DNA from: Methylococcales bacterium
GTDB lineage: Bacteria > Pseudomonadota > Gammaproteobacteria > Methylococcales > Methylomonadaceae
Direction of reading: 5' to 3'
Assembly (NCBI GenBank): GCA_030693155.1
Contig: JAUYBJ010000084.1
Span: 1 to 64,000, forward strand
DNA: 64,000 bases
The notes below the pieces were generated by a model. That model saw nothing but the letters and a program-made list of their open reading frames with translations. It did not search any database and was not told the origin of the DNA. Numbering within the stretch: the stretch's first letter is position 1; each line of letters opens with the position of its first letter. Positions 36,624 through 41,521 of this stretch are shown piece by piece. The position numbers were made by a program, and so were the translations under genes.

Positions 36624-37612
36624 AACAGCTTTATCAATATGCCGTTAAATTAATCTGGTGGACAGTGACCTTGCAACTGGCACAACGCCTGCGCTTATGG
36701 TGGGCAGCGCGTCACGCCCATTTCGCACCGCCTACCGATAGCTATCATTTTGCCGTGCCGTTTAATTACGCCGTCACCCCGCCCGACGCGCCCGGTGTCG
36801 CGGTGATGTGTCATTTGTTTTATCCCGATATGCTGAGCGAATTTAAACCGTATTTGCTCAATATTCCGTTCGCTTTTGATTTATTCATCACCACCGATAC
36901 CGAACAAAAACAGCAACTGATTCAACAAAATCTATTAGATTGGCACAAAGGTGCAATAGACATTCGCCTCGTACCTAATCGCGGTAGGGACATTGCGCCC
37001 AAATTATTGGCATGGCACGATGTCTACCCGCGCTATGAATTTTTTCTGCATATTCATTCCAAAAAATCGCCGCACGCAGACAGTATTTTATCGGGCTGGC
37101 GCAATTATTTACTAAAAACCCTGTTAGGTTCAGAAGCCATCGTCAACAGTATTTTTGCCGCATTCAATAGCGATGCACAACTGGGTATGATTGCCCCTGA
37201 ACACTTTGCGCCTGTGCGCTCAGGGATAGGCTGGGGAACTAATTTTGCTGCCGCTGAAACGTTCGCCCGCGAGAAACTGACAATGCACTTATCGCTAGAA
37301 GGCAAAATAGATTTTCCATCGGGTTCGATGTTTTGGGCACGATCTGCGGCGATTAAACCCTTATTAGACCTGAATTTGTCCATAGAAGATTTTCAGCCTG
37401 AGAAAAAACAAATGGACGGCACACTGGCGCATATTATTGAACGGCTGTATTTTTTTATCTGCGAACAGGCGGGGTATCGTTGGATTAAAATTGCCAATCC
37501 TGCGTTACATCATAACGACAAAACTCTGTACATTGATAATCAAGAAATGCTGATAGAACGTATCAAACACACGCAATACGCTATTTTGCCATCCACAGAC
37601 ACTGATTTATAA
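36620..37612 (+). CDS. RgpF-like (rhamnan synthesis F family) protein
   Basis: A 330-residue protein with a single RgpF-like domain: VAVMCHLFYPDMLSEFKPYL, DLFITTDTEQKQQ, VPNRGRDIAPKLLAW, FLHIHSKKSPHAD, LGMIAPEHFAPVRSGIGWG, FPSGSMFWARSAAI. RgpF proteins are needed for rhamnose-glucose polysaccharide assembly in streptococci and are probable transferases. Its sequence closely parallels the C-terminal half of the protein at 32184-34265. The end overlaps the convergent panC by 6 bases and closes the polysaccharide locus. Confidence 0.87.
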   Translation: MKQLYQYAVKLIWWTVTLQLAQRLRLWWAARHAHFAPPTDSYHFAVPFNYAVTPPDAPGVAVMCHLFYPDMLSEFKPYLLNIPFAFDLFITTDTEQKQQLIQQNLLDWHKGAIDIRLVPNRGRDIAPKLLAWHDVYPRYEFFLHIHSKKSPHADSILSGWRNYLLKTLLGSEAIVNSIFAAFNSDAQLGMIAPEHFAPVRSGIGWGTNFAAAETFAREKLTMHLSLEGKIDFPSGSMFWARSAAIKPLLDLNLSIEDFQPEKKQMDGTLAHIIERLYFFICEQAGYRWIKIANPALHHNDKTLYIDNQEMLIERIKHTQYAILPSTDTDL

Positions 37613-38446
37613 CGCAACACTCATATTATCAATCAAGCGGGTTTTGCCCAGTTTTGCGGCAACTAACAACACCAGTTCAGTATCACCCTGCTGGGCTTGA
37701 GCTAAATCGAGACTACGGCAGATGCGAAAATAATCGGGCTGAAACCCTGCATTCCCTAAAGCTGATAAGGCTTGCTTTTCTACGCTGCTGTAATCCAAAC
37801 CCGCTACCATCGCCTCCCGCGCCGCACATAACGACTGATACAACAACGGGGCAAGCTGGTGTTCTGCTGGTGTTAAATAACCATTTCTGGAACTCATGGC
37901 TAAACCATTAGCCTCGCGTACGGTGTCTATACCGATAATGTCCACAGGCATATTCAAATCATTGACCATTGTGCGTATCACCGCCAATTGCTGAAAATCT
38001 TTCAGCCCGAATAATGCAACATCAGGTTGTACCATATTGAATAATTTACATACTACAGTCGCAACGCCATCAAAATGCCCGACGCGGGACGCGCCACAAT
38101 ACAGTTCAGATAAACCTGCCACACTGACCACGGTTTTCGCATTCGGTGCATACATTTCCGCCACTGACGGCAGAAATAATACATCGGTGTCTATCGCTTG
38201 CAGTTTTTCGGTGTCTTGTGCTTCGGTGCGCGGGTAACTGTCAAAATCTTCTCCTGCGCCGAATTGCGTCGGATTGACAAAAATACTGACCACGACTTTA
38301 TCGGCGTGCTGTTGGGCGGCGGTGACTAACTGACAATGCCCCGCGTGTAAATTGCCCATAGTGGGTACAAAGGCGATACGCTCACCTGCGACTTTCCAAG
38401 TGTAAATAAGGGTGCGTAGGGCTTGGACGGTGTTGACTATCTGCAT
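37607..38446 (-). CDS. panC: Pantothenate synthetase (pantoate-beta-alanine ligase)
   Basis: Joins pantoate and beta-alanine with ATP to give pantothenate, the precursor of coenzyme A. The 279 residues carry the HIGH-type motif VPTMGNLHAGHCQLV, VVSIFVNPTQFGAGEDFDSYPRT, ALFGLKDFQQLAVI and SSRNGYL (the KMSKS equivalent). The start codon abuts the panB stop directly. Last gene of the pcnB-folK-panB-panC operon. Confidence 0.97.
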   Translation of the reverse strand: MQIVNTVQALRTLIYTWKVAGERIAFVPTMGNLHAGHCQLVTAAQQHADKVVVSIFVNPTQFGAGEDFDSYPRTEAQDTEKLQAIDTDVLFLPSVAEMYAPNAKTVVSVAGLSELYCGASRVGHFDGVATVVCKLFNMVQPDVALFGLKDFQQLAVIRTMVNDLNMPVDIIGIDTVREANGLAMSSRNGYLTPAEHQLAPLLYQSLCAAREAMVAGLDYSSVEKQALSALGNAGFQPDYFRICRSLDLAQAQQGDTELVLLVAAKLGKTRLIDNMSVAL

Positions 38447-39262
38447 TTAAAAACTGTGTTCAGGAGTGGGAAATTGGCTTTGTTTGACTGCCAGCTGATA
38501 AGCGGCAAGCGCGTCGCGGATACTATGTGCATCGTGCATAAAATTCTTGGAAAATCGAGGCGATTTGCCGATACTGATACCCAGCATATCGTACAGTACC
38601 AGCACTTGCCCGTCACAACCCACCCCTGCACCGATACCGATGGTAGGAATGGTCAATTCATGACTGATGAGTTTGGCAAGCGCGGCAGGGACGCATTCCA
38701 GCACTAATAAACTCGCGCCTGCTTGCTGGAGTTGGTGGGCATTTTCAAGAATTTTGTCAGCATCGGCACTGGTTTTACCTTGCACTTTATAAACCCCCGT
38801 GTGGTTAATGTGTTGCGGTAATAGCCCTAAATGCCCGCAGACAGGAATGCCCTGCTCGACTAAAAAACGCGTTGTGTCCGTTCGCGCACCTTCTAATTTG
38901 ACCATTTGCGCACCGCTTTCCTGCATTAAACGGGCGGCATTTTGCGCGGCAATCAAGGGCGTGGGATAGCTCATAAACGGTAAATCGGCAATGATAAACG
39001 CGCGTTGCCGTGCCTGACTGACACAACGGGTATGATAAATCATGTCGTCAATCGTGACGGGCAGCGTGGTACTGCGTCCTTGTATCACCATGCCCAAGGA
39101 ATCACCGACCAGTAACAATTCAATACCGACGGCATCACATAAGGCACTGAAACTGGCATCATACGCGGTTAAACAGGTAATTTTTTCACCACGCTGTTTC
39201 ATGGCGGTGATGTCCTGCATGGTTAAGGTTTTGACGGTCGTGCCGTACAGTGCATTACTCAT
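38447..39262 (-). CDS. panB: 3-methyl-2-oxobutanoate hydroxymethyltransferase
   Basis: Transfers a hydroxymethyl group from methylene-tetrahydrofolate to ketoisovalerate, giving ketopantoate. A TIM barrel of 271 residues: TMQDITAMKQRGEKITCLTAYDASFS, LLVGDSLGMVIQGRSTTLPVTIDDM, MVKLEGA, VCGHLGLLPQHIN and TIGIGAGVGCDGQVLVLYDMLGI. It overlaps folK by 4 bases and abuts panC. Confidence 0.97.
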   Translation of the reverse strand: MSNALYGTTVKTLTMQDITAMKQRGEKITCLTAYDASFSALCDAVGIELLLVGDSLGMVIQGRSTTLPVTIDDMIYHTRCVSQARQRAFIIADLPFMSYPTPLIAAQNAARLMQESGAQMVKLEGARTDTTRFLVEQGIPVCGHLGLLPQHINHTGVYKVQGKTSADADKILENAHQLQQAGASLLVLECVPAALAKLISHELTIPTIGIGAGVGCDGQVLVLYDMLGISIGKSPRFSKNFMHDAHSIRDALAAYQLAVKQSQFPTPEHSF

Positions 39263-39753
39263 AACCGTTTGAGTCCCGCTAACGGGCAGTGTTCCAGTAA
39301 TTCAACCAGCTTGCCTTTGTTGGGAATATCCAGTTGCGGGGCGATTTCATGCAGCGGATAGAGTACAAACTCGCGTTCGGTCATGCCGATATGCGGTATG
39401 GTTAAATCAGGCAGTTCAATGACTTGCTCGCCGTACAGTAAGATGTCTAAATCCAGCGTGCGTGCGCCCCAGCGTTCAGCCCTGACGCGCCCATGACTGT
39501 TTTCAATGGCTTGTAAGGCGCGGAGTAATTCCAGCGGTGACAGCTCGGTTGTCACTGCCATGACTGCATTGACATAATCAGGCTGGTCTTGCGGCCCCAT
39601 CGGTGCGCTGTGATAAAGACTGGAAAAACCCTGTTCTGCAATACCTGTCACTGCGGCAATCGCGGCGCGGGCTGAATGGATTTGTTCGCTTGGATTTTCT
39701 AGGTTACTGCCTAAACCGATGTAGGCAATAACCTTGGTTGGTGTTGTGTGCAT
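39259..39753 (-). CDS. folK: 2-amino-4-hydroxy-6-hydroxymethyldihydropteridine diphosphokinase
   Basis: Pyrophosphorylates 6-hydroxymethyl-dihydropterin in folate synthesis. The 164 residues contain AYIGLGSNLENPSEQI, SSLYHSAPMGPQDQPDYVNAV and the family signature RWGARTLDLDILLYG. It lies between pcnB (23 bp upstream) and panB (4-base overlap), linking folate and pantothenate synthesis in one operon. Confidence 0.97.
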   Translation of the reverse strand: MHTTPTKVIAYIGLGSNLENPSEQIHSARAAIAAVTGIAEQGFSSLYHSAPMGPQDQPDYVNAVMAVTTELSPLELLRALQAIENSHGRVRAERWGARTLDLDILLYGEQVIELPDLTIPHIGMTEREFVLYPLHEIAPQLDIPNKGKLVELLEHCPLAGLKRL

Positions 39754-39776: not shown

Positions 39777-41150
39777 TTACTCGGTACTCGTTACATTGGT
39801 GGTGGTTTTTTTGCGGTAGACTCTTTTGCGCGGTGCTTTGCTGGTTTTAGCATTACGCGGCGGTGCGGTCATTTTGCGCTGTTCATTTTCATTGGCATTT
39901 TGGTAAATTTCCCACCATTTTACCACTTCCATCTCTGCACCACCTGTTTGGGCGCGTAATAACAGAAAATCGTAAGCCGCTCTAAAACGCGGATGGGTAA
40001 TCAAGCGGCTGGGTTTAGAGCCGAACCGTGCGTTAAATTTGGGTTGTAAACTCCACACTTCGCGCATGGCGAGCGTGATATGTCGTGGTAGCGCGGTGCT
40101 TTTCACCTGCATGGCAATCACTTCGTTAGCCGCTTCCTGATACGCTAAAAATTCAGGCGCACCTTTTAGCGTGTTTTGTTGGGCGCGTATTTGGACTGCA
40201 TCCCATAAAAACGCGGCAAATAAAAAGTATGAGGTGACCGTTTTACCTTCGGCAATGCGATTGTCAGAATTTTCCAGTGCTTTAATGAGTAATAAACGCG
40301 GGAAGCCTTGATCTTCAACCGCCAAGCTGTTTTCTGTGGCGGGAAACAGCACTTGAAACAGTCCGTAGTGACGAAGCATTTCAAAGGTTTGCAGCGCGTA
40401 ACCTGATAAAAATAATTTTAAGGCTTCATCGTACAAACGGGCGGCAGGAATACTGGCTAATAGCGGCGCGACATCGTGGATGGATTTTTCACACGCGGGA
40501 TCAATATGAAAACCCAATTTAACGGCAAAACGTACTGCACGAATCATGCGCACAGGGTCTTCACGAAAACGGGTTTCAGGGTCGCCGATTAAGCGCAACA
40601 CGCCCGCTTTGTGATCATCCATGCCGCCTGTGTAATCGACCACGGAAAAATCTTTGATGTTGTAGTACAAGGCATTAACGGTGAAGTCACGCCGCCATAC
40701 GTCTTCTTCAATCGTGCCGTAGACATTATCACGCAACAATCGCCCTTCTTTATTCAGTACCTGTTCGTCATTTTGCGCTTCGCCTGTCCCCCGAAACGTG
40801 GCAACTTCAATTACTTCACGCCCAAAATGTACATGAGCCAAACGAAAACGGCGACCGATGATGCGGCAATTACGAAATACTTTGCGTACCTGCTCAGGGT
40901 CGGCATTGGTGACCACATCAAAATCTTTCGGTTCGCGTCCCAGTAATAAATCGCGCACACAACCACCGACCAGATACGCATCAAAGCCGTCTTTTTGCAG
41001 TCGGTACAACACTTTTAGCGCGTTTTCACTGATTTGTTTGCGGGAAATACAGTGTTCTGAACGTGTATAGATGCTAACGGCGCGTTGTACGCTGACCGGC
41101 TCAACTTCATTTTTAGCTGAGTTAATAATTTTTTTGAAAAAGTTTAAAAT
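39777..41150 (-). CDS. pcnB: Poly(A) polymerase I, probable AUU start codon
   Basis: Adds 3' poly(A) tails that mark RNAs for decay. From ATT 41150 the product has 457 residues: a helical basic N-terminus (LNFFKKIINSAKN), CISRKQISENALKVLYRLQK, the nucleotidyltransferase motif LVGGCVRDLLLGREPKDFDVVTNA, RIIGRRFRLAHVHFG, RRDFTVNALYYN and PVRMIRAVRFAVKLGF. The basic C-terminal tail (PPRNAKTSKAPRKRVYRKKT) is typical. No ATG, GTG or TTG occurs in frame between the upstream TGA and a GTG at 41012, but that GTG lies inside the conserved region (at LYRLQK). ATT 41150 has AGGG nine bases upstream. E. coli pcnB is known to start at AUU, so this is probably conserved low-level translation. Confidence 0.88.
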   Translation of the reverse strand: MLNFFKKIINSAKNEVEPVSVQRAVSIYTRSEHCISRKQISENALKVLYRLQKDGFDAYLVGGCVRDLLLGREPKDFDVVTNADPEQVRKVFRNCRIIGRRFRLAHVHFGREVIEVATFRGTGEAQNDEQVLNKEGRLLRDNVYGTIEEDVWRRDFTVNALYYNIKDFSVVDYTGGMDDHKAGVLRLIGDPETRFREDPVRMIRAVRFAVKLGFHIDPACEKSIHDVAPLLASIPAARLYDEALKLFLSGYALQTFEMLRHYGLFQVLFPATENSLAVEDQGFPRLLLIKALENSDNRIAEGKTVTSYFLFAAFLWDAVQIRAQQNTLKGAPEFLAYQEAANEVIAMQVKSTALPRHITLAMREVWSLQPKFNARFGSKPSRLITHPRFRAAYDFLLLRAQTGGAEMEVVKWWEIYQNANENEQRKMTAPPRNAKTSKAPRKRVYRKKTTTNVTSTE

Positions 41151-41338
41151 GACCTGTAACCCTGTTTGTTTTGCCTTGTTTTGATAATCATATCATTTCA
41201 ATCAATTCTAGCCCAATCTATAGGGTGGTTTTCTTTTACATTATGCTTTTGTATATAGTAAAATCATTGACCTAATGGCTATCTGCTCGGCAGATAAGTA
41301 TTCAGAGAACTCTCATTAACACACTATCCGGTATCGTT

Positions 41339-41521
41339 ATGTTCAAAAAAATTCTTAATGGTCTGATTGACCATCCGTTCTTAACCAGTATTTTTGTCGC
41401 TGATTTTGGTGTTCTACTGTTTCACAGACCGCCTTTTCTATTCTCATTGCTGATGCTGGGTGCATTAATGGCAATGTGTATGTATTTTGGTCAAAAATTA
41501 GCCTTATTCAACAACATCTAA
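41339..41521 (+). CDS. Small membrane protein, unknown
   Basis: A 60-residue frame (MFKKILNGLIDHPFLTSIFVADFGVLL...) with two hydrophobic segments (about 15-28 and 31-51) separated by HRPP, and a Lys-containing amphipathic N-terminus. No strong ribosome site is seen before the ATG. It ends 7 bases before the RDD-family gene on the same strand, which supports it being a real upstream partner. Not recognised. Confidence 0.55.
   Translation: MFKKILNGLIDHPFLTSIFVADFGVLLFHRPPFLFSLLMLGALMAMCMYFGQKLALFNNI

Follow-up and report, generated by a model that had tools for sequence, protein, structure and literature searches.

Initiation of Escherichia coli pcnB at AUU was reportedly described in 2002 (Binns and Masters, Mol Microbiol 44:1287). 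In the RefSeq record of strain MG1655 the gene is annotated from an ATT that lies behind the sequence GAGGTG. The autoregulation of initiation factor 3 (IF3) through the AUU or AUC start codon of its own gene, infC, is a related case: pcnB shares with infC a start codon of the type that IF3 discriminates against, but its product is not IF3, and a feedback loop is therefore absent. In the accessible parts of two articles, infC and pcnB are called the only two E. coli genes starting at AUU (PMC9410913) and the share of ATT among E. coli start codons is put at 0.14% (PMC11742677). Another comparable gene is Streptomyces sigR, in which, according to the accessible part of its description (PMC5472188), a weak start keeps a regulator scarce and gene callers misannotate the coding sequence; sigR is however a different gene, it starts at GTC, and its repression by IF3 was shown experimentally in Streptomyces. 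The literature found on the AUU start of pcnB, in the parts accessible, deals with the E. coli gene only and does not mention conservation elsewhere; most subscription journals lay outside the search and an earlier mention is possible. The mechanism of the AUU start is already known from E. coli pcnB, and what is new here is the depth of its conservation and the turnover among weak codons.

The window, i.e. the whole stretch of 64,000 nucleotides that was analysed, carries on its minus strand pcnB followed by folK, panB and panC (Table 1). The open pcnB frame is bounded by a TGA at 41195-41193 and by its stop codon at 39779-39777. The encoded protein scores 523.4 bits against TIGR01942, above the cut-off of 305.65, and 494.5 against the narrower NF008634 equivalog, below the cut-off of 702; the solved poly(A) polymerase chains 3aqm, 3aql and 3aqk match residues 25-426 with E values of about 1e-127. 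By these matches the protein is PcnB, poly(A) polymerase I, the enzyme by which bacteria polyadenylate RNA, with its activity predicted by homology. Contig C143 of this genome carries a second, separate PcnB-like match, which is weak (84 bits) and is likely a CCA-adding enzyme. The nearest named relatives of the window's PcnB come from Methylococcales genomes; the best is a metagenome-assembled genome with 98% identity, and the protein of Crenothrix sp. D3 is 89% identical.

Table 1. Features of the pcnB region in the window, and loci with CTG in two sister families
Feature	Position	Strand	Basis
pcnB coding sequence from ATT, poly(A) polymerase I, 457 aa	39777..41150	-	TIGR01942, solved-chain matches
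ATT start codon of pcnB	41148..41150	-	ATT in 133/134 family 5' ends; coding-phase substitutions begin here
AGGG, Shine-Dalgarno-like site, nine bases before ATT	41160..41163	-	sequence and family SD-like motif
TGATATGAT, likely extended -10 promoter element	41187..41195	-	clustering of -10-like hexamers in the family
GTG, first canonical start codon in frame	41010..41012	-	internal Val of the conserved core, inside ISENALKVLYRL
folK, next gene downstream of pcnB (control, canonical start)	39259..39753	-	
panB (control, canonical start)	38447..39262	-	
panC (control, canonical start)	37607..38446	-	
CTG loci, f2 and f159			L053, L338, L339, L340, L342-L346, L353, L358-L360, L362

A first-pass annotation, made from the sequence alone, had placed the start of this gene at ATT 41150, with AGGG nine bases before it and a product of 457 residues, and had stated that no ATG, GTG or TTG lies in frame before the first GTG. 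Both statements agree with the sequence: direct reading of the minus strand from TGA 41195 to GTG 41012 finds none of the three codons, and the ATT is in frame with the GTG, 138 nt or 46 codons upstream of it. Since there is no canonical codon before GTG 41012, the mechanical ORF caller reports pcnB as a protein of 411 residues from that position; the expectation that automatic callers truncate the gene is borne out by this list, which is its sole basis. Being the first canonical codon in frame, GTG 41012 could in principle be the true start, but a protein of 411 residues would lack the conserved stretch ISRKQISENALKVLYRL. As the first-pass annotation had noted, part of the conserved PcnB region, CISRKQISENALK, is encoded upstream of the GTG, and a start there removes the pattern R-SEH-ISR--IS-NALK, which is conserved as far as E. 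coli and is present in the solved chains. Together with the coding pattern of substitutions described below, which already holds right after the ATT, 46 codons above the GTG, this makes initiation at GTG 41012 very improbable. The basic N-terminal helix expected for the longer protein is indeed predicted, at residues 2-9, but with a pLDDT of only about 30-35, and the model is uncertain over residues 1-22.

For a comparison within the window's family, PcnB was searched in 101 genomes and found above the cut-off in 96, of which 83, the window's own included, had their 5' ends examined. To these were added 72 named Methylococcales loci, 64-98% identical to the window and hence taken as belonging to the same family, for a total of 155 loci. 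In 145 of the 155 the start was placed by a motif in which the first residue was left free, giving 124 distinct 5' sequences; in the remaining ten loci the aligned Ile was set by eye, so that these are less independent. The resulting 134 distinct 5' ends, window included, are related to one another, and the counts that follow are not independent trials.

At the column of ATT 41150, 133 of the 134 sequences have ATT and one (L003) has ATC; the codon is therefore conserved as ATT, beyond the mere conservation of Ile. In L003 the frame also has two upstream GTG codons, and its congener L009 has ATT. A general preference for ATT does not account for this fixation, because the other Ile codons of pcnB vary: another column with at least 90% Ile and all rows present holds 38 ATT, 82 ATC and 5 ATA (n=125), an Ile column with fewer rows holds 30, 26 and 17, respectively, and the remaining Ile codons among the first 110 residues of the family sequences sum up to 381 ATT, 221 ATC and 129 ATA. 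The window comes from a draft assembly of 281 contigs, in which an ATG start might be hidden by a frameshift or by a mistake in sequencing or assembly; however, another 132 distinct 5' ends share this ATT, among them that of the cultured Methylobacter tundripaludum SV96 (L255), and such an error is so improbable as to be negligible.

Using a permissive list of motifs, an SD-like sequence is found 4-13 nt upstream in 133 of the 134 members, so that the conserved ATT with an SD, which the first-pass annotation had proposed to look for in related genomes, is there; a purine-rich tract occupies positions -13 to -9, and position -11 is G in 126/134. In the window the SD is moderate, AGGG with a nine-base spacing. 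The substitutions per codon position, taken from 894 overlapping pairs of alignable relatives and meant as a description rather than a significance test, are 0.32/0.30/0.38 over the 30 bases that precede the ATT and 0.17/0.17/0.66 in the 27 bases after it, the latter being the mark of a translated frame. By this comparison the coding pattern begins at the codon of ATT 41150 and not before. Initiation at another near-cognate codon would require either a site upstream of 41150, where the pattern of substitutions is non-coding, or one of the two in-frame ATT at 41129 and 41126 (codons 8 and 9). The latter are ATT in 44/134 and 72/134 of the sequences, respectively, with many ATC, ATA and other codons in their place, and lie at least 30 bases from AGGG; we consider a start at any of these sites to be very unlikely. 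The comparison turns the AUU start at 41150 from a guess into a reading that we infer with good support.

The leader of the gene appears to be short. A -10-like hexamer falls at -47 to -32 in 99/133 sequences of the family (mean of composition shuffles 16.6) and, as a second cluster, at -62 to -47 in 61/133 (shuffles 17.1); in two other ranges such hexamers are at or below the shuffle level. In the window's sequence the first range holds the putative promoter TGATATGAT (41195-41187), a string that is identical in close relatives but does not figure in the output of a generic promoter scan. Since this string contains the TGA, the in-frame stop upstream of pcnB forms part of the likely promoter. 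As judged from sequence alone, transcription from this site would give a leader of about 30 bases. Farther upstream, a terminator-like hairpin with a run of T is seen on the minus strand at 41357-41375.

The bases past the start are constrained as well. Leu at codon 2 (41145-41147 and its homologues in the 134 family members) is encoded by TTA in 115 of 121 cases, while elsewhere in the family's pcnB TTA accounts for 274 of 1103 Leu codons. Such fixation might mean that the ATT is kept because it belongs to an element acting as RNA or DNA, with initiation being incidental. However, no Rfam match was found, folding around the ATT is not unusual against shuffles (z 0.95), and in sister families, as described below, a weak start codon is retained but elsewhere; an AU-rich second codon is, moreover, what is expected to help a weak start. 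Conservation as an element is in our opinion a slight possibility, about as slight as that of another near-cognate start, and the near-fixed TTA may help initiation at the weak AUU.

The neighbouring genes served as controls. Of the 134 family pcnB sequences, 40 have no ATG, GTG or TTG in frame from the preceding stop to the conserved core. In the other 94 a canonical codon is in frame before the core, upstream or downstream of the ATT, with no widely shared place; the commonest one borders the SD tract, three codons before the ATT, and is GTG in 19/134 and ATG in 3/134. When only named contigs are considered, 18 of 80 pcnB lack a canonical start before the core, whereas none of the 219 control genes lacks a canonical codon before residue 12 (0/73 for panB, where one partial match of 74 was set aside, 0/76 for folK and 0/70 for panC). 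Across the class, panB was present in 53 of 58 genomes and none of the 30 examined lacked a canonical start before residue 22. As a positive control, of 30 infC loci from the family (L303-L332), 29 start at AUC and the other one (L331) at AUU, with GGAGGAT within 20 bases upstream in 26/30; the window genome's own infC (L330, contig C230) has AUC. Therefore, the window's family uses starts of the type that IF3 discriminates against.

Taken with the E. coli precedent, these data point to the following explanation, which we regard as highly probable. Translation of pcnB would start at AUU 41150, with the AGGG nine bases before it as guide; the leader would be short and probably transcribed from the putative extended -10 promoter. 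The initiator tRNA would pair imperfectly with AUU, and the 30S complex formed there would be of the kind that IF3 destabilises, so that few poly(A) polymerase molecules would be made per mRNA. The low yield and the sensitivity to IF3 are proposed for the window's gene by analogy with E. coli and with other IF3-controlled genes. The retention of AUU almost without exception among the relatives suggests that a low PcnB output is a trait kept for a long time.

The likeness to E. coli is close, with some differences. In both cases pcnB lies beside folK, the codon is AUU and an SD stands upstream, but the gene preceding pcnB is not the same, and the SD is GAGGTG with a four-base spacing in E. coli compared with AGGG and nine bases in the window. 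The first-pass annotation had described the start as being as in E. coli: this holds for the identity of the codon and not for its position, since the E. coli start precedes the window's by four residues when the proteins are aligned. The offset implies that the AUU codon was kept, or regained, at a shifting position.

Sister families of the same order show other codons, here assigned by eye. In the family f2 a CTG is present two codons before the homologous Ile in 13 of 14 sequences (L348 differs), and the single f159 sequence (L340) also has CTG. No clear SD accompanies the CTG in f2, and CTG is common among the downstream Leu codons of these 14 sequences, 13 from f2 and one from f159 (76/175); because of both facts CUG initiation in f2 and f159 is a suggestion only. 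In f160 the place of the CTG is taken by TTG in 8 of 9 sequences examined, with L355 ambiguous and a tenth genome without a full match. ATT is found in both f161 sequences and in two of f157, where a third has ATC; the diverged f3 proteins, 12 of which were examined from 14 genomes, have TTG in 11 and GTG in one. Three f158 loci (L351, L364, L378) could not be placed and stand outside these counts.

On the scale of the Gammaproteobacteria, 377 genomes were searched and 137 loci examined. The latter were drawn from the best-scoring matches, with some same-genus sequences and one gene cut by a contig end omitted, so that weaker or diverged genes are unrepresented; L053 is counted both here and in f2. 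No canonical start precedes the core in 12 of the 137 loci, and the other 125 have at least one in the open leader. A strong SD directly before ATT or ATC, together with no canonical start, is seen in L048, L050, L056, L084, L086, L095 and L155; these belong to distant Gammaproteobacteria with a short PcnB leader. Choosing the start with the best SD in each genome of the class proved too ambiguous for a full tally, and this strict minimum and an enrichment analysis are given instead.

In that analysis, at positions -15 to -2 before the core, an SD lies 5-9 bases upstream of 26 of 88 Ile codons compared with 196 of 1838 codons overall (hypergeometric p 4e-7, with about 20 codon groups compared and three settings of range and threshold tried). 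The signal comes from ATT (14/38) and ATC (10/33), while ATA (2/17) is not enriched, here or in the other settings, and Ile is the only group that stands out: ATG (3/17), GTG (4/41) and TTG (2/26) do not. After removal of similar sequences, which left 117 of the 137, the values are 20/71 for Ile against 170/1574 overall (p 2.6e-5); in the range -45 to -16, for longer leaders, Ile is marginal (27/149, p 0.058). The narrow range and tight spacing replaced a previous per-codon analysis over about 60 leader codons, in which Thr, Cys, Trp and other codons outranked all start codons; this was uninformative, since one SD serves several adjacent codons and long leaders add noise.

For many members of the class an ATG, GTG or TTG is a plausible start of pcnB, such as the GTG common to four Ectothiorhodospira loci and the ATG of RBG_16_51_14, and these counterexamples argue against a universal weak start. 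It is possible, although we hold this only tentatively and would rather bet against it, that poor initiation is a selected trait of pcnB across the Gammaproteobacteria, with both codon and place turning over, and that pcnB and infC form a standing pair of IF3-responsive genes. Such a reading would bring together the AUU of the window's family, the CUG or UUG of its sister families and the SD-linked AUU or AUC of short leaders elsewhere. Callers limited to ATG, GTG and TTG are expected to place the start of PcnB wrongly in genomes of this kind. The fixation of AUU in a methane-oxidising family, next to sister families with different weak codons, represents a natural experiment on the reasons for the scarcity of PcnB, and the start of pcnB offers a direct test of a putative IF3 link between translation initiation and RNA decay. 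If the reading is true, pcnB and infC would tie RNA polyadenylation to the supply of initiation factor.
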